From contig JBDWKL010000025.1 of assembly GCA_039973685.1 (NCBI GenBank), forward strand, positions 1-64,000: a stretch of 64,000 nucleotides of DNA. The letters run 5' to 3'. The position numbers and the translations under genes are program-made. The DNA comes from Hyphomicrobiales bacterium (lineage in GTDB: Bacteria > Pseudomonadota > Alphaproteobacteria > Rhizobiales > JACESI01). Numbering within the stretch: the stretch's first letter is position 1; the number at the start of each line of letters is the position of its first letter. Shown here piece by piece: positions 23,688 to 42,487 of the stretch. The notes beneath the pieces were generated by a model that saw only the letters and a program-made list of their open reading frames with translations, did no database searches and was not told the origin of the DNA.

Positions 23688-24168
23688 TGGCGAGGCAAAT
23701 TCATTAGATGACACATTGAGCGCACCAAAACAGCGCACTTGGGTGGGAACAATTGGAGCCATCCTCCTTTTAGTCCTCAGCCTCATTTTCATCGCAGGCG
23801 GCTTAGAGTTAGGTCTAGGCATACCAACACGGCTTGGGACAGGAGCCTTTCCGGTTCTTACAGGCCTTATTGTTCTCGTGCTTGCCCTCTTCATCTTCCT
23901 AGATGAGTTTCGTGGTGACGGCATTAAAGAAGCGCCAGACTGGATTGGTTTTTTAGCAATATCAGCAGCCATCGCGACCTTTGCATTGCTTGTTGACCGG
24001 CTAGGTCTTGTCCCAGCAGCTTTCCTATCCGTCGTCGTTGCCAGCATGCCAGATAAAAGCATTGGCTTCCCTTATAAGATTGTTTTAGGCGCGTTTGTTG
24101 CGCTTGGCTGTTGGGCACTTTTCATCAAGGCAATCAACTTGCCTTTCAAAGCATTTGTGGGAATTTGA
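23674..24168 (+). CDS. tctB: TTT transporter small membrane subunit TctB
   Basis: The protein is about 164 aa from ATG 23674, which has GGAG upstream and overlaps the decarboxylase gene; an earlier in-frame start is less likely. It has four predicted membrane helices (starting TIGAILLLVLSLIFIAGGLE) with the TctB-type pattern GLGIPTRLGTGAFPVLTGL. It forms the membrane part of the tripartite tricarboxylate transporter with TctA, driven by an ion gradient and fed by periplasmic TctC. tctA begins 1 bp after its stop. TctB-family proteins carry little substrate information; the neighbouring decarboxylase suggests a purine-ring acid. Confidence 0.88.
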   Translation: MKPDSGEANSLDDTLSAPKQRTWVGTIGAILLLVLSLIFIAGGLELGLGIPTRLGTGAFPVLTGLIVLVLALFIFLDEFRGDGIKEAPDWIGFLAISAAIATFALLVDRLGLVPAAFLSVVVASMPDKSIGFPYKIVLGAFVALGCWALFIKAINLPFKAFVGI

Positions 24169-24169
24169 G

Positions 24170-25717
24170 ATGGAAATTTTCGCAAGTTTTTACGATGGTC
24201 TCTTGGTTGTACTACAACCTGAAAACCTCATTTATTGCTTCATTGGCGTCTTCTTAGGAACCTTCATCGGCGTCCTTCCTGGCATTGGATCTATGGCGGC
24301 GATCTCAATGATTTTGCCATTGTCTTTTTCACTAGAACCAACCTCTGCACTCGTGATGATTGCCGGTGTATATTATGGGGCAGAATATGGCGGTTCTATC
24401 GCATCTATCTTGATGAATATCCCCGGTACACCTGCCGCTTCAATCACGGCGATTGAGGGATATCCTTTGGCCAAAAAAGGCCGTGCAGGCGTTGCCCTGT
24501 TTTCCACTGCGGCGGCATCATTCGGCGGTGGTATAATTGGGATGATCGTGATTGCGGTGCTATCGCCATCATTGGCGAAGCTGGCTCTATCTTTTGGTCC
24601 TGCTGATTATTTTGCCGTAATTTTATTAGGACTGATTGCGGCCTCAGTTGTGAGTAATGGCGGCGCACTTCGTGGTGTTGCAATGGTTATGCTCGGCTTA
24701 ATGCTTGGCACTATTGGTATTGACCTAACAACTGGCGATCTTCGCTTTACGATGGGCATTCCTGAATTACGCGATGGGGTACATATCGTAATCGTTGCGA
24801 TGGGCTTGTTTGGTGTCAGTGAACTTATTGCTTCTATCCGCACAAACAAAAATGGCGGCATGAAGCAAGAGATCGATTACAACGATTTTCACCCTTCCAA
24901 AGAAGAATGGAAATCGCTTATCGCACCGATCTTGCGTGGCAGCACTATTGGCTCCTTTTTTGGCGCATTGCCAGGAACGGGGCAAACCATTGCCGCGGCA
25001 ATTGCTTATGCGGTCGAAAAACGGATCAATCCCCTTCGCCATAAATTTGGAACGGGTGTTGTACCTGGTGTTGCAGTTCCAGAAGCCGCCAACAACTCAG
25101 CCACCCAAACAGCGTTTGTCCCAACATTGACACTGGGTGTCCCAGGCAGCCCGCCCATGGCCATCGTCATTGGTGCACTCATGATTTATGGTATTACGCC
25201 GGGCCCAAGATTGATATCAGAACAACCAGATTTATTCTGGGGGTTGGTCGCAAGCTTCCTTGTTGGAAACATCATGCTGATCATTTTGAATGTCCCCCTT
25301 ATTGGCATCTGGGTCAGGCTTTTGAAAATCCCATACAAGTACATGTATCCAACCATCATCGTGCTGATTTGTATTGGTGTGTATAGCCTCAATAACAACG
25401 TATTCGATGTATGGCTGACGCTGATTATTGGCGGCGCTGGCTACATCATGCGGCTCTTTAAATTTGAGCCCGCCCCCCTTTTACTAGGCTTTGTTCTTGG
25501 TCCCTTAATGGAAGAACAACTGCGTCGCGCAATGTTGCTATCGCGCGGCGACCCGATGGTGTTTTTAGAGCGCCCAATCAGCGCAACACTCATCACAATC
25601 ACCGTGGCTATTCTTGTTTTTGCCTTATACGCCACCCTTAGAAAACATCGGCACAAACGCGCCTTAAAGACGAATATAATTAATCAGAAAGGAATAAGTG
25701 ATGACGTTCAATCGTAG
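24170..25717 (+). CDS. tctA: TTT transporter large permease subunit TctA
   Basis: The protein is 515 aa from ATG 24170; the frame is open further upstream but that part belongs to tctB. It is a polytopic inner-membrane protein with about 11-12 helices and the two conserved TctA signatures: GTFIGVLPGIGSMAAISMIL near residue 28 and GALPGTGQTIAAAIAYAVEK near 270, followed by PEAANNSATQ. It is the translocating subunit. Gene order decarboxylase-tctB-tctA-tctC, with overlaps or minimal spacing, shows a single operon. The substrate is inferred from context only. Confidence 0.92.
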   Translation: MEIFASFYDGLLVVLQPENLIYCFIGVFLGTFIGVLPGIGSMAAISMILPLSFSLEPTSALVMIAGVYYGAEYGGSIASILMNIPGTPAASITAIEGYPLAKKGRAGVALFSTAAASFGGGIIGMIVIAVLSPSLAKLALSFGPADYFAVILLGLIAASVVSNGGALRGVAMVMLGLMLGTIGIDLTTGDLRFTMGIPELRDGVHIVIVAMGLFGVSELIASIRTNKNGGMKQEIDYNDFHPSKEEWKSLIAPILRGSTIGSFFGALPGTGQTIAAAIAYAVEKRINPLRHKFGTGVVPGVAVPEAANNSATQTAFVPTLTLGVPGSPPMAIVIGALMIYGITPGPRLISEQPDLFWGLVASFLVGNIMLIILNVPLIGIWVRLLKIPYKYMYPTIIVLICIGVYSLNNNVFDVWLTLIIGGAGYIMRLFKFEPAPLLLGFVLGPLMEEQLRRAMLLSRGDPMVFLERPISATLITITVAILVFALYATLRKHRHKRALKTNIINQKGISDDVQS

Positions 25718-26678
25718 AAAATTCTTAGGAACAACAATGGCAGTTTTTGCCATGCTTGCTTCGCCGTTTGCAGCAGCAGAGCCTGGCAAATGGAGCGATG
25801 ACCCAGTTCGCATCGTGGTGACTTTTCCACCAGGTGGAACAAGTGACCTTGTAGCAAGATTGCTTGCAAAACACCTTGGTGAAGATTTTGGGCAAAAAGC
25901 AGTCGTTGATAATCGTCCAGGTGCGGCTGGCACCGTTGCAGCTGACTTTGTTGCAAAACAGCCTAACGATGGCACAACATTGCTTCTTGCCAACAATGCG
26001 CCATTCACTATCGCGCCAACACGTTTCAAGTCGATCCCATTTGACCCGCGTACTGACTTTACCCACCTTGCTTACATAGGTGCATCCGCTCCGGGTCTAT
26101 TCGTTCAGCCATCCTCTGGCATTACGAACTTGAAGGAGTACATCGCCAAGGTAAAAGACGGTTCCTTGACTTACGGTTCTAGTGGGGTTGGTTCAATTTC
26201 TCACATTCTAGGTGAAGCCGTAGACGCTGCACTTGATGTGAAATCCATCCACGTGCCTTACAAAGGTAGCGCACCAGCTATTCAGGATTTCCGTGCGAAA
26301 GTTCTGGATACTTTTTATGACATGGCTGTTCAAAACAGCGATTTGATCGAGAACAAAGAAGCGATTGCAATCGCGATTGCATCCCCAGAGCGTAACCCTC
26401 AACTGCCTGATTTGCCGACATTCAAAGAACAAGGTTATGACGTGGTGATTGAAAACTGGGTTGGTGTTTCTGGCCCAAGTGGCATTGATGCAGCCAAGGC
26501 AAAACAGATCAACGAAACGATCAACGCCGTTTTTGCCAGTGAAGCAGTACAAAAGCGCCTAACTGAGCTCGGTATCACAAATCGTCCTATGTCTGTCGAA
26601 GGTTACACTGCCCTTGTTAGTGAGTTGATTGATGTATGGGCGCCATTGATTAAGTCTACTGGCATCGCTGAAAAGTAA
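25701..26678 (+). CDS. tctC: TTT periplasmic solute-binding protein TctC (Bug family)
   Basis: The protein is 325 aa from ATG 25701 with AGGA upstream. It has a twin-arginine-like signal (NRRKFLGTT, then a hydrophobic core ending AAAEP). Mature Bug-fold features are present: PVRIVVTFPPGGTSDLVARL, AGTVAADFVAKQ and LPTFKEQGYDV. It captures the ligand in the periplasm and delivers it to TctAB. Bug proteins usually bind carboxylates. Given the operon, 5-hydroxyisourate, OHCU, urate or a related ureido acid are possible ligands. A strong terminator follows 14 bp after the stop. Confidence 0.9.
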   Translation: MTFNRRKFLGTTMAVFAMLASPFAAAEPGKWSDDPVRIVVTFPPGGTSDLVARLLAKHLGEDFGQKAVVDNRPGAAGTVAADFVAKQPNDGTTLLLANNAPFTIAPTRFKSIPFDPRTDFTHLAYIGASAPGLFVQPSSGITNLKEYIAKVKDGSLTYGSSGVGSISHILGEAVDAALDVKSIHVPYKGSAPAIQDFRAKVLDTFYDMAVQNSDLIENKEAIAIAIASPERNPQLPDLPTFKEQGYDVVIENWVGVSGPSGIDAAKAKQINETINAVFASEAVQKRLTELGITNRPMSVEGYTALVSELIDVWAPLIKSTGIAEK

Positions 26679-30733: not shown

Positions 30734-31783
30734 ATGAATAGACGTCAACTGATGACGGGCTTGGTCTCATTAAAACTGGCCTCATCTCTTTCACTCCCAG
30801 CGATTGCACAGTCCAAATTAAAACCAATTAGAATGCTGCTAAATACTGGCGCATCTGGACCTCAAGCTTGGTTCTTTCTAGCGCAGGACCGTGGTTATTT
30901 TGCCGATGAGGGAATAGATATTTCTTTCGCACCTGGATATGGCGCTTATACGGCCGCGCCACGGCTGATGAATGAAGAATTTGATATTGGCTACGGCGAC
31001 ATCAACTCATTAATTGAGGTAAGTGCCACCCGTCCCCACAAAGCACCAGTTGGTGTTTTCGCCCTTTTTAATGCATCACCATCCACTATTGCAGTTCCTG
31101 CCAATGGCCCAATAAAAAGCCCTAAAGATTTAGAAGGAAAGACACTGGTCGGCCATCCAAGTGATGTAGCACTTCGGACATTTGGTGCATTTTGCAAGGT
31201 GAATGGCATTGATCAGTCGAAGGTGAAGGTTGGCAATTTTGGCAGTGGATTTAGAACACAGCTTCAAACAATGCTGGCCACGAATAATGTCGATGGTGTG
31301 TTTGGTTACGTCAGTACGATTTCATCAGCAATGTCGCGAGACGACGACGATCAAAACCACCTCCTTCGTCACCTTTCATTCGCAGAACACGCGCCTGATC
31401 TCTATGGCAGTACGATTATGGCGACCCGCAAAATGTTAAGCGCTGATCCAGATAGCATTGCAGGCATTGTAAGAGCCGTGAACCGTGGGATTCATGATGC
31501 AATTACCGACCCAGAAGCCGCCATTGATGCGGTAATGCGCCGAGCAAAGTTTTCATCCCGCACCTCTCAGATGCTGCGCTTTACAACCACCATTGAAATT
31601 GAAATGGGCCATAAAGAAGGCAAGCGCATTGGCATTGGTGCGGTGGATGAGATGCGACTTCAACGATCCATCGAGTTGATCGCATCAACCAACAAATTAC
31701 CGCGCGTTCCTAGCCAAAGCGAAATATTCACAGATCGCTTTTTGCCATCGCTCAATGAACGTGTACGCCATTTAGCGGGCTAA
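30734..31783 (+). CDS. Orphan NMT1/SsuA-like solute-binding protein, copy 1
   Basis: The 349-aa protein has a twin-arginine-like signal (NRRQLMTGLVSLKLASSLSL..AIAQ). The mature protein has the NMT1/THI5-like ABC binding fold: PIRMLLNTGASGPQAWFFLA, QDRGYFADEGIDISFAPGYG, then DIGYGDINSLIEV and LEGKTLVGHPSD. No permease or ATPase gene is adjacent. It is a paralogue of the next gene (same length, many shared motifs). The ligand is unknown; the NMT1 fold often binds pyrimidine- or sulfonate-like compounds. It may feed a distant ABC transporter or act as a sensor for the upstream kinase. Confidence 0.86.
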   Translation: MNRRQLMTGLVSLKLASSLSLPAIAQSKLKPIRMLLNTGASGPQAWFFLAQDRGYFADEGIDISFAPGYGAYTAAPRLMNEEFDIGYGDINSLIEVSATRPHKAPVGVFALFNASPSTIAVPANGPIKSPKDLEGKTLVGHPSDVALRTFGAFCKVNGIDQSKVKVGNFGSGFRTQLQTMLATNNVDGVFGYVSTISSAMSRDDDDQNHLLRHLSFAEHAPDLYGSTIMATRKMLSADPDSIAGIVRAVNRGIHDAITDPEAAIDAVMRRAKFSSRTSQMLRFTTTIEIEMGHKEGKRIGIGAVDEMRLQRSIELIASTNKLPRVPSQSEIFTDRFLPSLNERVRHLAG

Positions 31784-31806
31784 AAACTCTTGAAGAGGTT
31801 TTACAA

Positions 31807-32856
31807 ATGAATGACATAAATCGACGCCATCTCATTGGTGGTCTTGCAAGTACAGCGCTTGCGGGGCTGACTACATCTGTTGTCGCGAAAAACAACAATC
31901 TCAAATTGCTGTTGAATACCTCTTTCTCTGGCCCAGTCGCCTTTTTTCTTCTAGCCCAAGACAAGGGCTACTATCGCAAAGAGGGCTTGAACATGAAGTT
32001 CTCGCCCGGCGGAGGAGCGGCTGCTATTATCCCACGTGTGCGTCACGGTGATTTTGATGCAGGTTATGGTGATATAACAGCCTTGATCGAACGCATCGCA
32101 AGGAGCCCGAAAGATAAAGGGCCAGTTGCCGTCTTTACAACATTCAATGCAGTTCCTTTTACCATTGCCGTTGCAGCAGATGGCCCTATTAAAACGCCCA
32201 AAGACCTAGAAGGACGCATTGTCAGCGGCCATGGCAGTGATGCGGCGTTGATCACGTTCGATATGTTTGCAAAGGCCACGGGAATTGACGCAAGCAAAGT
32301 CCAAATCAAGCGCTCGGGCGGGGGCATGGGCCAACAAGTCGTCGATGTTTTGAACGGTAAGAATGCGCACGGTGTCTTTGGCTTTGTTCAAACTATCATA
32401 GCAACGACGGCCTCTTATGGCGTTAAGCCAAAGGATATTCGGTTTTTGGAATATGCAGACTACATTCCCGATATGTATGGGAACACACTTTTTGTGACAC
32501 GCGAGACCTATGAAACAAGGACAAGCGAAATTGCTGGTTTGGTCCGCGCTACAAACCAAGGTCTAAGTGATACGGTCTTAAATACAGAAGAAGCGATGGA
32601 CGCATTAGGGCGGCGCGTTGGAAATAGCCGTCGGTCAATCAACGAAACAAGACTTATTGGTACATTACGCACAGAAATGGCTCATCCTGAAGGCGCACGA
32701 ATTGGAATTGGCGAAATGGATGACGACAGGCTTGAACGGCTTATTCGCCTTATTGTGAAAACAAAAAGCTTACCGCGAACGCCTAGTGTTCGAGAAGTGT
32801 TTGACCGTCGTTTTTTACCGCCGCTAAGCGAGCGTGTCGTCAGTTTGGGTCAATAG
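31807..32856 (+). CDS. Orphan NMT1/SsuA-like solute-binding protein, copy 2
   Basis: The 349-aa protein has a twin-arginine-like signal (INRRHLIGGLASTALAGL). Its mature fold parallels copy 1: LKLLLNTSFSGPVAFFLLAQ, DKGYYRKEGLNMKFSPGGG, DAGYGDITALIERI, LEGRIVSGHGSD. It starts 23 bp after copy 1, so tandem duplication is likely. The ligand loops differ (GGGAAAI in place of GYGAYTA), suggesting related but distinct ligands. The 3' end overlaps the convergent adenine deaminase gene by 7 bp, and no transporter membrane or ATPase genes follow. Confidence 0.86.
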   Translation: MNDINRRHLIGGLASTALAGLTTSVVAKNNNLKLLLNTSFSGPVAFFLLAQDKGYYRKEGLNMKFSPGGGAAAIIPRVRHGDFDAGYGDITALIERIARSPKDKGPVAVFTTFNAVPFTIAVAADGPIKTPKDLEGRIVSGHGSDAALITFDMFAKATGIDASKVQIKRSGGGMGQQVVDVLNGKNAHGVFGFVQTIIATTASYGVKPKDIRFLEYADYIPDMYGNTLFVTRETYETRTSEIAGLVRATNQGLSDTVLNTEEAMDALGRRVGNSRRSINETRLIGTLRTEMAHPEGARIGIGEMDDDRLERLIRLIVKTKSLPRTPSVREVFDRRFLPPLSERVVSLGQ

Positions 32857-33881
32857 TCACTCCGGCGAACGTCATCCACGCAAGCATCGATTTTGTCCAA
32901 TTGAGCTTGTTTGTCTCGGTCATCAAGGAATGAAGCGGCAAAGGAGTTTTTGGCAAGAGTGATCAACTCATTCTCGTTCAAATTAAGAGCATCATGCACC
33001 GCGCGATAATTGTCGTTCAGATAACCGCCAAAATAAGACGGATCGTCTGAATTCACCGTAACCAATAAGCCTGCATCTAAAGCCTTTTTCACGGGGCTTG
33101 CAGCAAGTGACGGTATGCCCTTCAAGCGCCAATTGGAGATCGGGCACATGGTGAGCGGAGTTTGCTGTTTTGCCAGACGCTTGATCAAGGCAGGATCATC
33201 AAAAGCGTGGTTGCCGTGGTCTACCCGCTCAATCTTCAAAATATCAAGCGCGTCTTTAACATTCTCTGCCGTGCCCTCCTCGCCCACATGAGCAACAGGC
33301 ACAAAGCCCTCATTGCGCGCTTCTTCAAACACGCGGGTAAACTTCTCAGGCGGATGCCCTGCCTCTGAACTATCAAGCCCCACGCCATAAATATGTTCTT
33401 TGTTTTTGCAAGCGCATTCCAAGGCCTCAAAGGCTTCCTCTTCTGGCAAATGACGCAAGAAGCACATGATCAGCTTGGAGGTGATGTTTAGCTCTCTATG
33501 CGCCTTCTCCAAAGCAGAGACGATGCCGCCCAAAACTGTATCAAACTTAATGCCGCGATCAGTGTGGGCTTGTGGGTCAAAGAACATTTCAACATGGGTA
33601 AGACCATCCGCGTGTACGCGCTCAAGATAGGCCCATGTTAGATCGTGAAAATCTTGCTCGGTGATCAACACCGACATGCCCATATAATAAAGGTCGAGAA
33701 AATCTTGCAAGCAATCGAACTCGTAAGCGGCCCGCACATCCTCCACCTCATCATAGGGAAGTTTGATGTTGTTGCGTTTCGCCAGCGCCAGCATCATTTC
33801 AGGCTCAAGAGTTCCCTCGATATGTAGGTGCAGTTCCGCCTTTGGTAGGCGATCTATCAGTTGTTCCGCGATGCTTTTCAT
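32850..33881 (-). CDS. Adenine deaminase (Aah1-type, amidohydrolase)
   Basis: The protein is about 343 aa from ATG 33881 (GGA upstream; an upstream in-frame start at 33917 is less likely). It belongs to the adenosine/adenine deaminase superfamily: HLHIEGTLEPEMMLALAKRN (zinc-binding HxH; EGTLEPE is typical of the adenine-specific branch rather than the GALRP/GSLRP of adenosine deaminases), HVGEEG (catalytic His/Glu), VDHGNH, and NSDDPSYFGG (zinc-binding Asp). Likely reaction: adenine to hypoxanthine plus ammonia. It lies 90 bp after the ligase gene on the same strand, so it may be cotranscribed with the sulfoacetate-type operon, and it borders the purine-ring module. Confidence 0.85.
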   Translation of the reverse strand: MKSIAEQLIDRLPKAELHLHIEGTLEPEMMLALAKRNNIKLPYDEVEDVRAAYEFDCLQDFLDLYYMGMSVLITEQDFHDLTWAYLERVHADGLTHVEMFFDPQAHTDRGIKFDTVLGGIVSALEKAHRELNITSKLIMCFLRHLPEEEAFEALECACKNKEHIYGVGLDSSEAGHPPEKFTRVFEEARNEGFVPVAHVGEEGTAENVKDALDILKIERVDHGNHAFDDPALIKRLAKQQTPLTMCPISNWRLKGIPSLAASPVKKALDAGLLVTVNSDDPSYFGGYLNDNYRAVHDALNLNENELITLAKNSFAASFLDDRDKQAQLDKIDACVDDVRRSDY

Positions 33882-33971
33882 AACTAATCCAACCCTTACA
33901 TCAGTCGATGGTTGCAAAAAGAACTCGAATGTTAGGCAGAGTTATGACGGTGAGCAAGGGCGCGTTATATG

Positions 33972-35501
33972 CTAGGCGGTCATGTCGGCGATTTTGAGAC
34001 GCTGTATTTTACCCGACGGCCCTTTTGGGAGTTCCGGCAAGACATGAATTATCTCTGGGGATTTGAATTTCCCAAGCCTGTCTTCACAAATTTTATAAAG
34101 CTGCTCGACGTTCAAATCAGAGCCCACTCTGATCATCACACCTGCTTCGACCTTTTGGCCATATTGCTTACACTCGCGCGGAAAGGCTGCCGCTTCCACA
34201 ACATCGGGATGGGAATAAAGCGCTTCGTCGATTTCCCGAGGTGCGATGTTCTCACCGCCCTTGATAATGAGTTCTTTTAAGCGCCCCGTGATGAAGACAT
34301 AACCCTCATCATCCATGCGCCCAAGATCGCCTGTGCGAAGCCACTTGTTTGGGGTGAGCGATGCCGTGGTTGCCTCGTCATTATTGCGATAGAGCTTCAT
34401 CACGTTATGACCGCGCACCAAAACCTCGCCTTCTCGCCCATGCGGCACTTCGTTTTGATGGTCGTCAGCAATGATAACCTCATTACCAAATGCGATACCG
34501 GGTGAGCCAATTTTGCGTTTGCCATCTATTGGGTTTGATAAAATCTGAGCGGCTGTTTCTGTGAGGCCCATGGTCTCGATAATCGGCACATTGAAACGTT
34601 CTTCAAACGCCGTTTGCACATCAGGCGATAAAGGCGCTGACGCTGAGCGGCCAAACCGGAGAGCCTCCAGTCCACTTGCGTCGTGGCCATTGTTTTCTGC
34701 TTCTTGCAGCAAATAGGAAATTTGGGTTGGCACCACAGAAAACCAACTGCATTGATTGCGCTTAATCGTATCCCAAAACGAAGAGACGGAAAATCTGTTT
34801 GGCACCACCAAGCTAGAACCACTGACGAGCGAACCGAGCAAGGTCACGCACAGACCATTGATGTGATAAAGCGGCAAGACGCAAAGCCCCCTATCTCGCT
34901 CTGTAAGCTTATGGGCCAGTACTGCGTTGCCGCCACCAGCAAGCAGGCTTGCATGTGTATGCACTACGCCTTTGGGAACGCCTGTTGTGCCTGAGGTATA
35001 CATCAACAACGCATCATCTTGCGCGTTGATTGCAACATCTGGCGCAGCTGCATCATCCGCGAGATTTAAGGCACTGAGAAGCAAGAACTCATTCTTGTCT
35101 TTTTCAGGGGCTGCCTCCGTTAAAAGCGGCAAGGTCTTTTCCTGACACAAAACTAATCTGGCGGCACTGTGATTTAGAACATGAGAAATCGTCTGCTTGC
35201 CAGACACCAGATTGATCGCGGTGGCTGTGTAACCGCCATACATGATGGCGAGGATAGCAACGGCTGCATCAACGCCGTTGTGGAAGGCATAACCGACCGT
35301 CTCGCCTGTTGTAAGACCCGCATCATGGAGGTATTTGCTTAACGCTCGGCAACGCTTTTGAAGCTGCAAGAAACTTGTTTCCGTGCTGCTGTTTGGGTCA
35401 ACCAGATAGACCTCATCCGGCTTTTCACCTGCCCAATGATCAATCAGCCCACGAACCGTTTGCCCTTGAAGTGACTGAAGATCGAATACAGGCTCGCTCA
35501 T
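33972..35501 (-). CDS. sauT: AMP-forming acyl-CoA ligase, probable sulfoacetate-CoA ligase SauT
   Basis: The protein is 509 aa from ATG 35501, which overlaps the sauS stop (ATGA); a start at 35519 is less likely. ANL-family motifs are intact: P-loop MYTSGTTGVPKGVVHTH, GLTETAAQILS, LRTGDLGRMDDEGYVFITGR and the catalytic Lys region GPSGKIQRLK near the C-terminus. Together with the CoA-acylating aldehyde dehydrogenase it fits SauT of Cupriavidus necator, which makes sulfoacetyl-CoA from sulfoacetate, ATP and CoA. The name rests on context and general likeness; another short carboxylate is possible. Confidence 0.75.
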   Translation of the reverse strand: MSEPVFDLQSLQGQTVRGLIDHWAGEKPDEVYLVDPNSSTETSFLQLQKRCRALSKYLHDAGLTTGETVGYAFHNGVDAAVAILAIMYGGYTATAINLVSGKQTISHVLNHSAARLVLCQEKTLPLLTEAAPEKDKNEFLLLSALNLADDAAAPDVAINAQDDALLMYTSGTTGVPKGVVHTHASLLAGGGNAVLAHKLTERDRGLCVLPLYHINGLCVTLLGSLVSGSSLVVPNRFSVSSFWDTIKRNQCSWFSVVPTQISYLLQEAENNGHDASGLEALRFGRSASAPLSPDVQTAFEERFNVPIIETMGLTETAAQILSNPIDGKRKIGSPGIAFGNEVIIADDHQNEVPHGREGEVLVRGHNVMKLYRNNDEATTASLTPNKWLRTGDLGRMDDEGYVFITGRLKELIIKGGENIAPREIDEALYSHPDVVEAAAFPRECKQYGQKVEAGVMIRVGSDLNVEQLYKICEDRLGKFKSPEIIHVLPELPKGPSGKIQRLKIADMTA

Positions 35502-36928
35502 TGCCCCGCCTTTTGCCAATAATCGCCAAACATATCATCAAGGCTCGGTTCATTGATGGGAATAGTGCGGACAACTTTTGCGATGTTCATGAGGTGCTTA
35601 TGATTGAAATTCTCATCAATCGAATTACCACCCCAAGACCCGCACCCCATCGACAGGGAAAACGGCATGCCATTATCGAACGAACCACCCGTTGCAAAAC
35701 AATGGGCTTGGTTGACGATGACGCGGCAGGTGGGTAGCTCTTGCGCTAGATTAAGGGCGCGTTGATCGTCACGGCTATGGAGGCCGACCGAATGCCCTGC
35801 CCCAACATGATCTAACAGGCGGCCTGCAATGGTTTTTGCATCATCAAAATCATCAGCGACATAAAGAGTTGTAACAAGCGAAAGCTTCTCACCAGACTCA
35901 GGTGCATTGTCGCCAATACCCGCCCCTTCAATCAGTAGAAATTTAATCGTGTCAGATGCCTCAAGTTCGAGATGAGCAACAGACATCACCTTGTCGATAT
36001 CTTGCGCCAACATCTCGCGATTAAGATGTCCACTTCCGAACAATGCGTTCTTGAGACGATCCCCATCAGCGCCAGTCAACAAACGCCCGCCTGCTTGCTC
36101 AAGCTCTGCCAAAAATGCATCGCGCACAGACTTTAAGACGATGACCGCATTTTCTGACGAACAAGACGTGGAGTTGTCAAAGGTCTTGGATGCCGTGATC
36201 TTCTGCGCCGCCTCTTTAAGGTCAGCAGTTTCATCGACGATAACACTCACATTGCCCGCGCCAACGCCGATGGCTGGCGTGCCAGATGAATAGGCGCGCT
36301 TCACATTGTTCTGGCTACCTGTCACCACCAGCAAGTCAGCAGCTTCCATTAAGCGTTGCGCCTTTGCTTTTGAAACAGGGGCCGGCACCATTTGCACCAG
36401 ATCATGATCAACGCCAATTTTATCAAACTCAGCGTGAATATAAGAAATCAATTTCTCGCACACCTCAACCCCTTTGGGAGATGGCGATAGAATGACCGCA
36501 TTGCCGCATTTAAGCGCATTCACGACGTTATTGGTGGGTGTGGCAACTGGATTGGTTGAAGGCACCACAGCACCAATCACGCCCTTCGCACGCGCAATCT
36601 CAGTTATTCCTGTTGCAGGGTCGCTTGAAATAATACCGCAGGTCTTCGAGTGCTTCATATCACGCAGCACGCCTAAGGTTTTGCGGTGGTTCTTGGTGAT
36701 CTTATCTTTGACATTACCAAGGCCGGTTGTCTCGACGGCCATGGTTGCAAGTTCTTCATTGCGTGATGGCTCCATCAACGCCCATGCAGCAGCAAAGGCC
36801 GCCGTATCATAGCGCTCTTGCGTTGCACCCGCCTCAAAGGCTGCTTGCGCCACACGTGCCCTTGAAACCAACGCGTCAACAATTGCCGCATCGCTTTCAG
36901 CAACGGCTTGGATATCGGCCACGGCCAT
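35498..36928 (-). CDS. sauS: CoA-acylating aldehyde dehydrogenase, probable sulfoacetaldehyde dehydrogenase SauS
   Basis: The protein is 476 aa from ATG 36928 (GGTGAG upstream). It is an acylating aldehyde dehydrogenase of the EutE/AdhE-N type: GVIGAVVPSTNPVATPTNNV, VVTGSQNNVKRAY, and the catalytic Cys in FDNSTSCSSENAVIV. Near the C-terminus, NQAHCFATGGSFDNGMPFSL and SMGCGSWGGNSIDENFN are features I associate with SauS-type enzymes. Predicted reaction: sulfoacetyl-CoA plus NADPH to sulfoacetaldehyde and CoA. The desulfonating enzyme Xsc, needed next, is not in this window. The gene is coupled to sauT by a 4-bp overlap and lies behind tctABC. Confidence 0.8.
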   Translation of the reverse strand: MAVADIQAVAESDAAIVDALVSRARVAQAAFEAGATQERYDTAAFAAAWALMEPSRNEELATMAVETTGLGNVKDKITKNHRKTLGVLRDMKHSKTCGIISSDPATGITEIARAKGVIGAVVPSTNPVATPTNNVVNALKCGNAVILSPSPKGVEVCEKLISYIHAEFDKIGVDHDLVQMVPAPVSKAKAQRLMEAADLLVVTGSQNNVKRAYSSGTPAIGVGAGNVSVIVDETADLKEAAQKITASKTFDNSTSCSSENAVIVLKSVRDAFLAELEQAGGRLLTGADGDRLKNALFGSGHLNREMLAQDIDKVMSVAHLELEASDTIKFLLIEGAGIGDNAPESGEKLSLVTTLYVADDFDDAKTIAGRLLDHVGAGHSVGLHSRDDQRALNLAQELPTCRVIVNQAHCFATGGSFDNGMPFSLSMGCGSWGGNSIDENFNHKHLMNIAKVVRTIPINEPSLDDMFGDYWQKAGQ

Positions 36929-36946
36929 AAAACTCACCTTTCGAAG

Positions 36947-36969
36947 GTGGGTGGCACAATGCCACCCAC
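36947..36969 (-). promoter_or_regulatory. Intercistronic hairpin between tctC and sauS
   Basis: GTGGGTGGCA (36947-36956) and its complement TGCCACCCAC (36960-36969) form a 10-bp stem with a 3-nt loop. There is no T-tract. Position after the solute-binding protein gene is typical of hairpins that stabilise the upstream mRNA and give more binding protein than enzymes. Confidence 0.65.
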
Positions 36970-36993
36970 TACTATTGTTTGGATGTAAGAGCC

Positions 36994-37962
36994 TTATAGG
37001 CCTTTTAAAAGCTCTGTAAGGGTCGCTTGGCGCTTATCCCACATTGCAATCACTTCATCACGGCTCATAATGTGCATTGGCGAACCACCCGCTTTCATGC
37101 GTTTTTCAACACGGGCATGTTTGAACATTTCCGGCACTTTCGCAGCCAACACGTCGATCACTTCCTGCGGTGTTCCTTTTGGCACCATAAGACCACGGAA
37201 GTTGACGGATGAATTATCAACATCAAGGCCCGCTTCTTTCATGGTTGGGACGTCTGGCAAGAATGCATTGCGCTCAAGGTCTGCAACACCCAGAATTTTC
37301 ACGGTGCCAGCTTGTTGTGCGCGGAATGCATCAGACAGATTGTTGACGCCTGCGAGCACTTCACCCGCAATAACAGCTTTCATTGCCGCAGCACCGCCAC
37401 CCTTTGTTGGGATATAGGCAAGTTTGCATTCACATGCTTTTTCAATTTGAAGGGCTGCAATATGGTGACCCACGAACAGGCCAGCGCCCGACGTTGTTGT
37501 TTTGCCTGGATTGGCTTTGGCAAACGTCACCAAGTCTTCCATGGAGTTAAACTTAGAATCCTTACCCACCACAACAACAGCAGGGTCAGCGCCCCAGTTG
37601 GCGATTGGCTCAAAGGAATCCTTTGAATATTTAACGCCGCCTTTGATGCTTTGCGCGATGAAATGCGGAATGTTGTAGGCAGACATCGTATAGCCATCTG
37701 CTTCTGCATCCGTTGCAAACCAGTTCCAGCCTTTGCGGCCACCAGCACCCGGTTTGTTGAGAATGTAGATTGGCTGGCCCAGTTGATCTTCATTACCAGC
37801 CACCATTGTTACGATGCGCGCCTGAAAGTCAGTCGCTCCTCCTGCACCATAAGAAACAGCAACGCCAATGGGGCGATCTGGATAATCAGCAGCAACAGAT
37901 AAGCCTGCAGCACTCGCTAAAACAAAGGCACTTGCCAAAGCTGTTTTTAGTAATCTTCTCAT
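36994..37962 (-). CDS. tctC: TTT periplasmic solute-binding protein TctC (second system)
   Basis: The 322-aa protein starts at ATG with GGAGGAAA upstream. A Sec signal peptide (MRRLLKTALASAFVLASAAG..VAA) precedes the Bug-fold domain: YPDRPIGVAVSYGAGGATDF, then LNKPGAGGRKGWNWFATDA and LPDVPTMKEAGLDV. It should bind the carboxylate handled by the downstream enzymes; sulfoacetate is the inference. It is clearly different in sequence from the TctC at 25.7 kb. It is the third gene of tctA-tctB-tctC-sauS-sauT. Confidence 0.9.
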   Translation of the reverse strand: MRRLLKTALASAFVLASAAGLSVAADYPDRPIGVAVSYGAGGATDFQARIVTMVAGNEDQLGQPIYILNKPGAGGRKGWNWFATDAEADGYTMSAYNIPHFIAQSIKGGVKYSKDSFEPIANWGADPAVVVVGKDSKFNSMEDLVTFAKANPGKTTTSGAGLFVGHHIAALQIEKACECKLAYIPTKGGGAAAMKAVIAGEVLAGVNNLSDAFRAQQAGTVKILGVADLERNAFLPDVPTMKEAGLDVDNSSVNFRGLMVPKGTPQEVIDVLAAKVPEMFKHARVEKRMKAGGSPMHIMSRDEVIAMWDKRQATLTELLKGL

Positions 37963-37995
37963 GTCGTTTCCTCCCGTATGAAAATAAATGATCGT

Positions 37996-38457
37996 CTAAA
38001 ACCAGATGCCACGTGGTGTTTGCACCTGAAGTAGTTTGTAAAATAGTCCGTAAATCACACCCATAAATATCAGCGTGACAGCTGCCCGTTTGCCCCAATC
38101 TTTTAAGCTAGAAAGAGGTGCTGGATCGTAGATAGAATAAATTGTAAAAAAGGCGATTGTGGATGAAAGATAAAAGCCCAATTCTTTGGCCGCGAAGAAC
38201 ACGAAAACCGCGACCACGATAGCGCCCGGTAAAATGTTCATCATCTCTTGTTGCTTTAGCCCTGTCCCTACTTTTGACAGGCCAGCAGCAGCGCGGATGA
38301 AATTCCAAACTGCGAGCGCTACAAAGAAGACCGAAACAACCCGAGGAAAGAGATAAGCTTCCGCTGGCTCTTGGGTGAAGCTCAGCCAAACAACGGTTGT
38401 TGCAAGTAATAAAATAAGCGTGGCCGGTATGGCGTGTTGAAGGCGGCTAGTGGTCAT
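37996..38457 (-). CDS. tctB: TTT transporter small membrane subunit TctB (second system)
   Basis: The 153-aa protein has four predicted helices (ATLILLLATTVVWLSF at residues 11-26, VVSVFFVALAVWNFI, ILPGAIVVAVFVFFAAKELG, AAVTLIFMGVIYGLFYKLL). This is the TctB layout. It overlaps tctA by 4 bp (ATGA) and precedes tctC by 33 bp. It assembles with TctA in the inner membrane. Confidence 0.87.
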   Translation of the reverse strand: MTTSRLQHAIPATLILLLATTVVWLSFTQEPAEAYLFPRVVSVFFVALAVWNFIRAAAGLSKVGTGLKQQEMMNILPGAIVVAVFVFFAAKELGFYLSSTIAFFTIYSIYDPAPLSSLKDWGKRAAVTLIFMGVIYGLFYKLLQVQTPRGIWF

Positions 38458-39986
38458 TGTGCTGCCTCCGTTGCTTCATCAGATTTTGCAGGACTGGCCT
38501 TTTTACCGCCACTCAACATGTTGAACCAAAATGCGTAGCCGATTGAACCAAGTACCAAGAGGATCAAGAACAGGTTCAACCCGCCTGTGAAGAAATATTC
38601 CAGCGGCCCGTTTTGTGCAGCGGCAATAAGCGACCCAGTGGTGAAGTAGTCAGCAGCCAGCGGGCCGAGGATTAACCCAAGCACGAGCGGTGCGGCAGAA
38701 AAACCAAATTTCTCGAGCACATACATACCCGCGCCAAGCACAAACATGATGTAGACATCATCCATGCTTTGCTGAACGGAGTAGGAGCCGAACACTGCCA
38801 GAATAACAACCGCTGCCGCCATAACGGCAACAGGTGCGCGCGCAATGCGGGCGGCCCATGAAGCAGTATAGAGACCGAACAAGACCATGAATATCTGACC
38901 GATCAACATGGAATCGATAAAGGTCCAGATTTCACGCGGATGGTTTGTGAAAATATCTGGCCCCGGTGAAATGTTGTTGATGAGCAACCCGCCAAGAAGG
39001 ACTGCCGCTGTTGGGCTTCCTGGAATGGAGAGCGTGAGCAGCGGCACCAAAGACGGGCCCACCATCGCGTTGTTTGCTGATTCAGCCGCGATAACACCTT
39101 CTGGGTGTCCGGTGCCAAACTTATCCTTATGCGGTGAAAACTTGCGCGTTTGATCATAGGCAACAAGCCCCGCAATTTGTCCGCCGACACCGGGAATAAT
39201 CCCGATGATTGAGCCCACCACCGTGCCGATAGAAAGCGCGCGCACAGAACTGAATGTTTCCTTCATGGAGCTGAGCAACGAATATTTGGGAACTGCGATC
39301 GCCTCAACCGCTGATGCATTTCGTCCCTTGGCCATCATGTCGATGATTTGTGGGATCGCGAATAATCCGATCAGCGCCGGAATAATATGGATGCCACCCG
39401 ACAGACTATCGTGGAAAGCAAAGCGCTCGACGCCGCGAATATCATCATAGCCAATTTGGCTCAGCCATAGGCCGATACAGCCAGACAGGAACCCTTTCAC
39501 GAAGCTTTTTGAATCGAGTGAACCGATGACTGTCACGCCCAAAATTGCAATCCAAAAAAGATGCGATGGGCCGAATTTCAAAGCCCATTGGGCAAGCACT
39601 GGTGTCAAGAATATCAGCAAGAACACGCCGATAATACCGCCGATGCCCGAGGCTAGAAAGGAAAGATGAAGCGCGCGGGTGCCCTCGCCTCTCTTTGCCA
39701 TTTCATTACCATCAAGGGCTGTCGCAATATTGGCAGGTGCGCCCGGAATTTTCAGCAGTATGGCACTCACCGCACCGCCCGCCACCGTGGATGTATAAGC
39801 GGCACCCAGCAGGATGAGGCCGTGCGTTGCCTCCATCTTGAACGTGAACGGGATAAGCAGCGCCACGGCCATGGTTGGTGATAGGCCCGGTGTTGCTCCT
39901 AAAATCAAACCACCAATTGTCCCGCCCACTAAAAGCAGGAACGCAGTCGGTTCAAAAACACCACCGAAGTAACTCAAAAATTCCAT
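38454..39986 (-). CDS. tctA: TTT transporter large permease subunit TctA (second system)
   Basis: The protein is 510 aa from ATG 39986, which has GGGGAGGA upstream; a start at 40013 is less likely. It is polytopic with the TctA signatures GGLILGATPGLSPTMAVALL near residue 25, LLKIPGAPANIATALDGNEM, GIIPGVGGQIAGLVAYDQTR near 265 and AESANNAMVGPSLVPLL. It is the translocation subunit and first gene of the operon. Its start lies 112 bp from the divergent LacI-family regulator, with a palindromic operator between. Confidence 0.92.
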   Translation of the reverse strand: MEFLSYFGGVFEPTAFLLLVGGTIGGLILGATPGLSPTMAVALLIPFTFKMEATHGLILLGAAYTSTVAGGAVSAILLKIPGAPANIATALDGNEMAKRGEGTRALHLSFLASGIGGIIGVFLLIFLTPVLAQWALKFGPSHLFWIAILGVTVIGSLDSKSFVKGFLSGCIGLWLSQIGYDDIRGVERFAFHDSLSGGIHIIPALIGLFAIPQIIDMMAKGRNASAVEAIAVPKYSLLSSMKETFSSVRALSIGTVVGSIIGIIPGVGGQIAGLVAYDQTRKFSPHKDKFGTGHPEGVIAAESANNAMVGPSLVPLLTLSIPGSPTAAVLLGGLLINNISPGPDIFTNHPREIWTFIDSMLIGQIFMVLFGLYTASWAARIARAPVAVMAAAVVILAVFGSYSVQQSMDDVYIMFVLGAGMYVLEKFGFSAAPLVLGLILGPLAADYFTTGSLIAAAQNGPLEYFFTGGLNLFLILLVLGSIGYAFWFNMLSGGKKASPAKSDEATEAAQ

Positions 39987-40059
39987 AAGCGTGTTGTTCC
40001 TCCCCAAGTCCAAAACGCGCGCAAGATTGCCTTGGGTAAAACTTTATGGGATGAAAATA

Positions 40060-40081
40060 AAAATGCAAACGTTTTCATTTT
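40060..40081. promoter_or_regulatory. LacI-family operator between tctA and the regulator gene
   Basis: The 22 bases 40060-40081 (central part TGCAAACGTTTTCA) form a near-perfect palindrome centred on CG, with one mismatched pair per arm. This is the classic LacI/GalR operator form. It lies 74-95 bp upstream of tctA and 16-37 bp before the regulator's start, so it likely controls both genes. Confidence 0.85.
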
Positions 40082-40097: not shown

Positions 40098-41129
40098 TTG
40101 CCTCGTCAAAGATCACGAAAAGGCGCGCCTGGAATTTTGGAAGTGGCCAAACGTGCGGGCGTTTCACCAGCCACAGTTTCGCGGTATTTCAATGACCCTG
40201 AGATCGTTAAAAGCCCGACCCGAAAACGAATAAAGGATGCTGCCCACGACCTTGGCTATATCCGCGACCGTATGGCGAGCGCCATGCACAATCATTTCTC
40301 TGGCACGATCGGGCTGGTGGTGCCGACCATCGACAATGCGATTTTCTCGGAATTGATACAGGCGTTTTCTGCTAAACTGCGTGAGTATGATCGCACCATG
40401 TTGATTGCAACCCATAACTACAATCTTCAAGACGAAGTCTCAATCATTCGCTCCTTGTTGGAACGGCGTATTGATGCGGTTGCGATGATTGGCCTTGACC
40501 ATGAGCGCCCTCCCCTTGAAATGCTGGCATCCCGTGGCGTACCTGTATTAGCCGCTTGGAACTATCGCGCAGATTCCACTATTTCCTGTATTGGAGCAGA
40601 TAACGTCAAGGTTGGGTTTCAAGTGGGGCGCTACTTGGTTGAGAATGGCCATGAAGACATAGCGCTTGTCTTCCCGCCCATTGATAACAACGATCGCGCT
40701 TATGATCGCTTCAATGGTGTTTTAAGTGCGCTCAAACAGTCGCCTTCCACATTCCCCTCCCATCGCAAAATCACATCGCTTTATGACATTGGAACGGCGA
40801 AAGCAGCTGTTGCCAAATTGCTTTCACAAAACCGACCAACCGCCCTCATTTGTGGCAATGACATCATTGCTCAGGGTGCGCTCTTTGCTTGTCAAATGCT
40901 GGGTTTGCGCGTGCCGCACGATATATCTGTGATCGGAATTGGCGACTTTCGAGGGTCTGCTCATATGGAGCCAGGCCTCACCACATTGCGCCTGCCTGCA
41001 AAACGCATTGGAGAACTGGCGGCGGAAAAACTATGTGCGAAAGTTGATTTTGGCGCAGAGAGCCAAATCGAGCGCATTGAGATTGAGGCTGAATTAATTG
41101 AAAGAGGATCAGTGCGTAAACTCAAATAA
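40098..41129 (+). CDS. LacI-family regulator of the sulfoacetate-type operon
   Basis: The protein is about 343 aa if translation starts at TTG 40098, which has GGAG 8 bp upstream. The frame is open to 40032, but that would place the operator inside the gene. The helix-turn-helix is ILEVAKRAGVSPATVSRYFN, with the hinge KRIKDAAHDLGYIRDRMAS. A periplasmic-binding-protein-like effector domain follows (residues about 60-335; GLVVPTIDNAIFSELIQAF). It probably represses tctABC-sauST until an inducer binds. A hairpin terminator follows the stop. Confidence 0.88.
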   Translation: MPRQRSRKGAPGILEVAKRAGVSPATVSRYFNDPEIVKSPTRKRIKDAAHDLGYIRDRMASAMHNHFSGTIGLVVPTIDNAIFSELIQAFSAKLREYDRTMLIATHNYNLQDEVSIIRSLLERRIDAVAMIGLDHERPPLEMLASRGVPVLAAWNYRADSTISCIGADNVKVGFQVGRYLVENGHEDIALVFPPIDNNDRAYDRFNGVLSALKQSPSTFPSHRKITSLYDIGTAKAAVAKLLSQNRPTALICGNDIIAQGALFACQMLGLRVPHDISVIGIGDFRGSAHMEPGLTTLRLPAKRIGELAAEKLCAKVDFGAESQIERIEIEAELIERGSVRKLK

Positions 41130-41182: not shown

Positions 41183-42487
41183 TTAGAAGCTGATTTTAGC
41201 AGATGCAGAGAATGCACCGATAAAGTCGTTACCAAATCGAGCTGAACTGGCGGTGTTTAGGATTGTACCTTCACCAGAAGTAGAGCCTGATGTTAATATA
41301 CCGACGGCGCCGCCAAGTTGAAGATCAACCTTATCATTTGCCTTAAAGCTCAAACCAGAAGTCACCAACCATGTAGCAGACTGTGTACCAGTAGTTGTCG
41401 CGGTTCCTCTATCCCATGTGAGAGAAAGAAGCCCAGAAAGTTTCTCTGAGAACTTGCGGCCAACACCACCAGTCAAGGTCAAACCATCACGGTAAAGTGG
41501 TTCAAAAGCAGTAACCGCACCAAGGCCGGGTACTGTTGGGCTTGGAACACCGGTTACAGGAATAGAACCTAGCTGGCTCCAATCTGTCCAGTTGAACCGA
41601 GCAAAAGCAAGGGTCTTTTCGTTGATCCCAGATTGAATATTAATATCAACTTGCTGAGGAAGCTCTGTTGACAAAGCGATAGGCGCAGTTGGCGTTAAAA
41701 GAGCTGCAGGCGTGTTAAACTGACTGATGTCTACAGTACCAGTGGCATCGATGTCGTAGGCAGCGGTGTAGACTGCTGAAACACGAATTGCGCTTTTTGG
41801 AATTTCGTATGAAAGACCCGCTCTCCAAGTAAATGTATCGTCATCAAGCTCAAACAGACCAAGACCTTGGGCATCCAATCCCGTTAGCGCGCCACCCGTG
41901 CCGGGTAAAAATGGCAACACGCCAGTTGGTACACCAGCAAAGTCAACAAAAGACTGTCTAGAAAGAAAACCATCGAATTGAAGGTATGAACCACCAGCAA
42001 TCACACGAAGTTGGCTTTCTCCAAGTCTCGTATTACCTAAACTGAATTTAGCCGAACAAGTGAGGCCATAGTCTTTCGTGTCAATTTCAAACTCAACCGC
42101 GTTTCCTGAAACAGCTTGGTTGAGACCGTTGTCTTGGTCAGCGCCAAAAGGTGTCGAGAACGTTCCAGCACAATCGAAGTGATCACCGAAGCCTAGTTTG
42201 ATTGCCGCTTTAGGTACGAAGAAGCTTCCGTCAACTCTTGTGTTAGTCGAACTAACCACCGTCGGGCTGGCACCAGGGGCACCAGCTGCAAGATTGACCA
42301 GTCGAGCACTGCTATCAATTGTACGTTGGGGTGCCACAAAAGTGAAACCAACTTCACTGTCAACTTTTTTGTCGGAGAACAAAACATTGTAGTCCACGCC
42401 GCCGCGACTAAAACCACCAGATATTGCTGTAGAACTTGCGATCATGGCGAAAGCGAGTGTGCTACCTAAAATTATTTTATTGTTCAT
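41183..42487 (-). CDS. FadL/OmpP1/TodX-type outer-membrane channel
   Basis: The 434-aa protein has a Sec signal peptide (MNNKIILGSTLAFAMIASST..) and a mature N-terminus SGGFSRGGVDYNVLFSDKKV, the plug or hatch segment of FadL-family proteins. The rest alternates as in a 14-strand beta barrel and ends in an aromatic residue (SASAKISF). FadL channels admit long-chain fatty acids or other hydrophobic compounds through the outer membrane. It is monocistronic, with a large upstream region. The substrate is not evident; acyl-CoA genes further downstream could use it. Confidence 0.85.
   Translation of the reverse strand: MNNKIILGSTLAFAMIASSTAISGGFSRGGVDYNVLFSDKKVDSEVGFTFVAPQRTIDSSARLVNLAAGAPGASPTVVSSTNTRVDGSFFVPKAAIKLGFGDHFDCAGTFSTPFGADQDNGLNQAVSGNAVEFEIDTKDYGLTCSAKFSLGNTRLGESQLRVIAGGSYLQFDGFLSRQSFVDFAGVPTGVLPFLPGTGGALTGLDAQGLGLFELDDDTFTWRAGLSYEIPKSAIRVSAVYTAAYDIDATGTVDISQFNTPAALLTPTAPIALSTELPQQVDINIQSGINEKTLAFARFNWTDWSQLGSIPVTGVPSPTVPGLGAVTAFEPLYRDGLTLTGGVGRKFSEKLSGLLSLTWDRGTATTTGTQSATWLVTSGLSFKANDKVDLQLGGAVGILTSGSTSGEGTILNTASSARFGNDFIGAFSASAKISF

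Follow-up and report, generated by a model that had tools for sequence, protein, structure and literature searches.

The window, a stretch of 64,000 nucleotides from a marine Hyphomicrobiales (Rhizobiales) bacterium, carries a minus-strand operon ordered tctA-tctB-tctC-sauS-sauT (40013-33972) and, opposite it, a divergent plus-strand LacI gene that ends at 41129. The features of this cassette are:

33972..35501, minus strand: sauT, AMP-forming acyl-CoA ligase, predicted sulfoacetate-CoA ligase (Pfam AMP-binding 250 bits, AMP-binding_C 44.7 bits)
35498..36937, minus strand: sauS, predicted CoA-acylating sulfoacetaldehyde dehydrogenase (NF047625, 679.5 bits, cut-off 600)
36946..36970, minus strand: stem-loop in the tctC/sauS gap, an intergenic fold
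36994..37962, minus strand: tctC, periplasmic solute-binding protein of the TTT importer (PF03401, 120 bits)
37996..38457, minus strand: tctB, small membrane subunit of the TTT importer (PF07331, 51 bits, gathering score 29)
38454..~39987, minus strand: tctA, large membrane subunit of the TTT importer (PF01970, 443 bits)
40063-40078 (16-bp core ATGAAAACGTTTGCAT) and 40051-40078 (28-bp box), minus strand: predicted LacI operator, from conservation across lacI intergenic regions
Probable start ~40098, end 41129, plus strand: lacI, LacI-family regulator (PF00356 HTH and periplasmic-binding domains)

All cassette genes are intact, and the five minus-strand genes are tightly packed, with 4 bp overlaps between sauS and sauT and between tctB and tctA. 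The aldehyde dehydrogenase, each TTT subunit, and the two domains of the AMP-forming ligase all score above their Pfam gathering thresholds. The preliminary description of this DNA had named sauS and sauT homologues together with a complete tctABC set and a LacI regulator, all of which are confirmed here as present and intact. Its span ended at 40081, so that most of the LacI gene falls outside it. The longest open reading frame of tctA reaches 40013, and the ATG at 39987 is the likely start. For lacI, the true start is probably the TTG at 40098 rather than the longest-frame start at 40032, because the predicted HTH begins at about residue 35 of that longest frame.

Two neighboring genes were considered as cassette members and rejected. 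An adenosine deaminase (32850-33884) lies beside the cassette in no other fetched locus; a FadL-like protein (41183-42487) likewise recurs there in no other fetched locus, and a stem resembling a terminator separates it from lacI. The window also holds another TctA and TctC, a pair belonging to a different TTT type (24095-26678, plus strand), as well as two adjacent paralogous periplasmic binding proteins of 349 aa each with no permease between them (30734-32856), which by eye resemble the NMT1/TauA type.

The intergenic region between tctC and sauS (36938-36993) folds stably in most relatives, with a median z of -2.7 and z below -2 in 52 of 81. The hairpin of the window is strong, and most relatives have a similar one here whose sequence differs. 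The hairpin perhaps raises expression of the binding protein over that of the enzymes.

SauS, SauT, and the TTT importer

SauS scores above the cut-off of the NCBIfam equivalog for acylating sulfoacetaldehyde dehydrogenase (NF047625, 679.5 bits against 600). Seventeen homologues all retain its CSSEN motif, whose cysteine is Cys243 when counted along the aligned stretch, and among solved structures its nearest relative is an acetylating succinate-semialdehyde dehydrogenase. SauT is 41-62% identical to the SauT of relatives, and among solved structures oxalate-CoA ligases are closest to it. No SauT-specific (equivalog) model was found, and the SauT call is made from the Pfam AMP-binding match and adjacency to sauS. 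The ADP-forming two-subunit ligase SauCD, of the Bilophila type, was not found in the window and does occur in other loci. An AMP-forming ligase favors import over excretion, with PPi hydrolysis pulling the reaction towards the acyl-CoA.

The MFS importer SauU is missing from the cluster, and tctABC stands in its place, with complete TctA, TctB, and TctC subunits (PF01970, PF07331, and PF03401, all above gathering score). TctC shares 63-88% identity with 33 relatives. In each of the pairwise comparisons it is better conserved than SauT or LacI, and it is the top cassette protein in most of them. Close TctC orthologues occur in nine genomes of the order sample (n=199), and all nine adjoin sauS. 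The AlphaFold model of TctC has a mean pLDDT of 83 and a pTM of 0.80 (input from window and genome-locus proteins, with one plasmid-collection row left out). It has the fold of a solute-binding TctC, its best PDB match being TctC 4x9t (TM 0.77/0.85). Other matches include Bug27, TphC, and MatC. Several of the matched TctC structures were solved with carboxylates bound, and none among the structure matches has a bound sulfonate. TctABC very probably imports sulfoacetate, with binding, transport, and direction all predicted from sequence.

Xsc, Pta, and candidate sulfite-handling genes in the genome

The host genome comprises 3.23 Mb in 55 contigs and is 100% complete by the tool's estimate. Xsc, which the preliminary description had placed outside the window, is indeed encoded nowhere within it. 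That description had made its reading depend on an xsc elsewhere in the genome, and a single copy over the cut-off lies at G000:C3:22476-24206 (TIGR03457, 953 bits against 676), with pta directly behind it (TIGR00651, 361 bits against 311). It had also called for a sulfite exporter or dehydrogenase, and we found three TauE-type exporter candidates along with a SoeABC-like complex. The latter is a three-gene molybdoenzyme cluster that includes the one DmsC-type anchor gene of the genome. Compared with the cluster that lies beside xsc and sauST in locus L063, the large subunit is 63% identical, the iron-sulfur subunit 62%, and the anchor 41%. No SoeA-specific model was found, and the cluster appears SoeABC-like by synteny. 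As far as sequence tells, then, the pathway is complete.

In this genome xsc lies away from the sauST cassette. No LacI box turned up at xsc-pta; the nearest match, with three mismatches, is inside pta. The xsc of the window's genome may serve mainly other sulfonates. A genome of the same genus whose SauS is not over the cut-off (G083) has xsc too, and no taurine-binding protein over the cut-off was found in the host genome. An Xsc-like thiamine diphosphate enzyme below the Xsc cut-off (402 bits) is encoded at G000:C27:23755-25404, and enzymes of this kind at about 400 bits recur in many cassette genomes.

Among the 199 genomes of the order, SauS is over its cut-off in 32 and Xsc in 53. The two co-occur strongly: 26 of the 32 SauS genomes have Xsc, as do 27 of the 167 that lack SauS (Fisher p = 1.2e-12). 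Six SauS genomes have no Xsc over the cut-off: two (G011, G072) carry an Xsc gene cut at a contig end, and the other four (G030, G073, G139, G189) belong to one genus with a SauS of another type. In the named collection, Xsc is over the cut-off in 47 of 50 cassette or near-relative genomes, a figure that has no matched control, unlike the order-level test; the three cassette genomes without it are those behind L127, L138, and L147. Four loci, from four genomes of one genus (L046, L058, L059, L060), have a SauS over the cut-off in genomes with no Xsc over the cut-off, and SauCD is found in two of the four.

Conservation, module exchange, and the LacI box

We fetched 80 named loci by SauS similarity, mostly from marine Rhodobacteraceae and Rhizobiales with some Granulosicoccaceae. 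The TTT type of the window is present in 73 of the 80, nearly all with a divergent LacI and SauT; given how the loci were fetched, such shares do not measure frequency in nature. This recurrence argues that the arrangement is not chance, and the cassette is common in marine alphaproteobacteria. Physical linkage of the cassette to xsc is seen in L068, where a gap of 86 bp separates sauT from an xsc that follows it on the same strand, and in L069, where the contig end cuts an xsc next to sauT. L063, from the Hyphomicrobiales MAG OFTM288, shares its contig with L090. A single open reading frame of 1005 codons in L063 (L063:3125-6142, minus strand) encodes a natural fusion of SauS with SauT. Both parts are Pfam-confirmed, with residues 3-475 73% identical to SauS of the window and residues 493-1000 56% identical to its SauT. 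The fusion is flanked by tctCBA and pta, and the same contig carries a divergent lacI, soeABC, a SulP sulfate permease, and xsc. All steps that we propose for the organism of the window are encoded in this one locus.

The importer is exchanged while the LacI-SauS-SauT core is kept. Two Paracoccus loci (L081, L147) have an MFS protein in its place, and L066/L161, L118, and L160 carry a distant TTT of a second type, one of these loci belonging to the window's genus. Between L066 and L067, both of the window's genus, the two distant TTT importer types stand behind the same LacI gene. In L057, the ligase is exchanged instead: LacI, the window-type TctABC, and xsc are kept, and the ADP-forming SauCD replaces SauT. 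Because LacI, its box, and sauST stay constant when the importer is swapped, one substrate should be common to the parts that replace each other. If every version handles a single compound, an importer and a ligase that change around a fixed aldehyde dehydrogenase are to be expected, and SauS together with Xsc points to sulfoacetate as that compound.

Of 81 lacI intergenic regions, 77 contain the 16-bp core ATGAAAACGTTTGCAT or a near match to it (at least 13 of 16 positions), compared with about 0.1 in base shuffles of those regions. When loci are aligned on the core, pairwise identity is 94% within it and about 30% upstream. The conserved stretch is longer than the core in nearly all of the loci compared: it forms a 28-bp box that has a third half-site, TATTTTCAT, at its end. 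The box is also kept where the importer is an MFS protein or the second TTT, and L057 has the core without the extension. The site in the window (40063-40078, minus strand) is the only perfect copy in its genome. With a sole perfect site at the cassette and none at xsc, the regulator is local. LacI is predicted to repress the cassette via this box, with both the repression and the inducer extrapolated from the LacI family.

Proposed pathway and alternative readings

We consider it highly probable that the locus is a dedicated sulfoacetate-utilization cassette, combining TTT import, AMP-forming activation, and reduction ahead of Xsc and Pta. The substrate and the direction of transport are predicted from homology and gene context. 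TctC would capture periplasmic sulfoacetate, and TctAB would carry it in. SauT, with ATP and CoA, would convert sulfoacetate to sulfoacetyl-CoA, AMP, and PPi, and SauS, with NAD(P)H, would reduce sulfoacetyl-CoA to sulfoacetaldehyde. Xsc, encoded elsewhere in the genome, would then cleave sulfoacetaldehyde to sulfite and acetyl phosphate, the latter going to acetyl-CoA by way of Pta. The sulfite may be oxidized by the SoeABC-like complex or exported by the TauE-type proteins. The divergent LacI would bind the 28-bp box as a repressor and be released by sulfoacetate or an intermediate.

Synteny with xsc, the co-occurrence statistics, and transporter swapping favor sulfoacetate over other acids. 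The main rival is that another small dianion is the substrate of the cassette, with oxalate (by way of oxalyl-CoA to glyoxylate) or 3-sulfopropionate the most plausible, and that SauS and SauT are mere homologues. We rank it as such because the solved structures closest to SauT are oxalate-CoA ligases. In addition, relatives of SauS act on several small aldehydes, and an aldehyde dehydrogenase HpfX and a CoA ligase HpfYZ for 3-sulfopropionate exist (PMC12890257). However, SauS is over the sulfoacetaldehyde equivalog cut-off, and a different dianion would leave unexplained the strong association with xsc, pta, and soeABC, seen both as co-occurrence and as physical linkage. The swaps with SauU-like MFS and SauCD modules also occur in xsc-linked loci, and overall we regard this explanation as unlikely.

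The TTT might instead import a different sulfonate, such as sulfolactate, and stand beside sauST by chance; importers of the SlcHFG type are known in Roseovarius and Chromohalobacter (PMC5812351). A sulfolactate importer would not be expected only next to sauS, where all nine close TctC orthologues of the order sample lie, nor does chance placement fit a TctC that is the most conserved cassette protein in most pairwise comparisons, which makes this reading very improbable. Still slighter is the chance that the enzymes run in reverse, turning taurine-derived sulfoacetaldehyde into sulfoacetate for excretion, with the TTT serving another purpose. Marine bacteria are known to excrete sulfoacetate from taurine, according to work cited in PMC12625764, and the ADP-forming SqwKL runs towards sulfoacetate (PMC12890257). 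SauT is of the AMP-forming class, though, in which PPi hydrolysis drives the reaction towards acyl-CoA; TctC is the binding-protein component of an importer, and Xsc and Pta are in the genome to consume sulfoacetaldehyde.

The dedicated sulfoacetate cassette proposed here can be set beside several known systems. Sulfoacetate utilization in Cupriavidus necator H16 is reportedly encoded by sauRSTU, described by Weinitschke et al. in 2010, with the MFS protein SauU as importer. The window resembles that system in SauS, SauT, a divergent regulator, and the Xsc pathway, and differs in having a TTT. The divergent regulator is IclR-type in the beta-proteobacterial relative L084, whereas it is LacI in the window. 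In Bilophila wadsworthia, SauS is likewise found with a TTT proposed as sulfoacetate importer (sauSCD-SauXYZ; Liu et al. 2023, as cited in PMC12625764, which gives SauXYZ as a TTT, and in PMC12890257). B. wadsworthia reportedly uses the ADP-forming SauCD and an isethionate/IseG route, in contrast to the AMP-forming SauT and Xsc of the window. By its published description, SlcHFG, the proposed sulfolactate TTT of Roseovarius nubinhibens and Chromohalobacter salexigens (PMC5812351), is again a TTT proposed for a short-chain sulfonate, and its substrate and pathway enzymes differ from those of the window.

The closest precedent comes from Arctic sponge symbionts, in which sauST clusters with a TTT replacing SauU were proposed for sulfoacetate (PMC12625764, 2025). 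As in the window, sauS, sauT, and a complete TTT are adjacent there, and xsc and pta are in the genome. The sulfoacetate-type CoA pathway with TTT uptake that the preliminary description put forward is supported by xsc, synteny, co-occurrence, and swapping, but its TTT route was already in print, and the sauST and TTT hybrid is a known one. The available part of that report mentions no LacI box, module swapping, or SauS-SauT fusion, and the likeness to it is by description only. These three features look new, as modest additions. A search that fell short of most subscription journals found no literature joining sulfoacetate, Xsc, and LacI. The cassette is a well-supported and mostly ordinary find.

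These results fix a likely function for a gene set that is publicly annotated only as an aldehyde dehydrogenase, an AMP-binding protein, and a TTT. TctC and the 28-bp box offer a testable marker for sulfoacetate turnover by marine Rhodobacteraceae and Rhizobiales, and the natural swaps with an MFS protein and between two TTT types provide strong indirect evidence on substrate in a transporter family that is hard to predict. We also lean, with less assurance, towards a broader view: marine alphaproteobacteria would widely carry this cassette as a module specific to the import and activation of sulfoacetate, with a TctC dedicated to that compound, a LacI sensor on the 28-bp box, and importer, ligase, and regulator exchanged independently around SauS. 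If so, sulfoacetate would regularly serve as a currency of carbon and sulfur in the sea.
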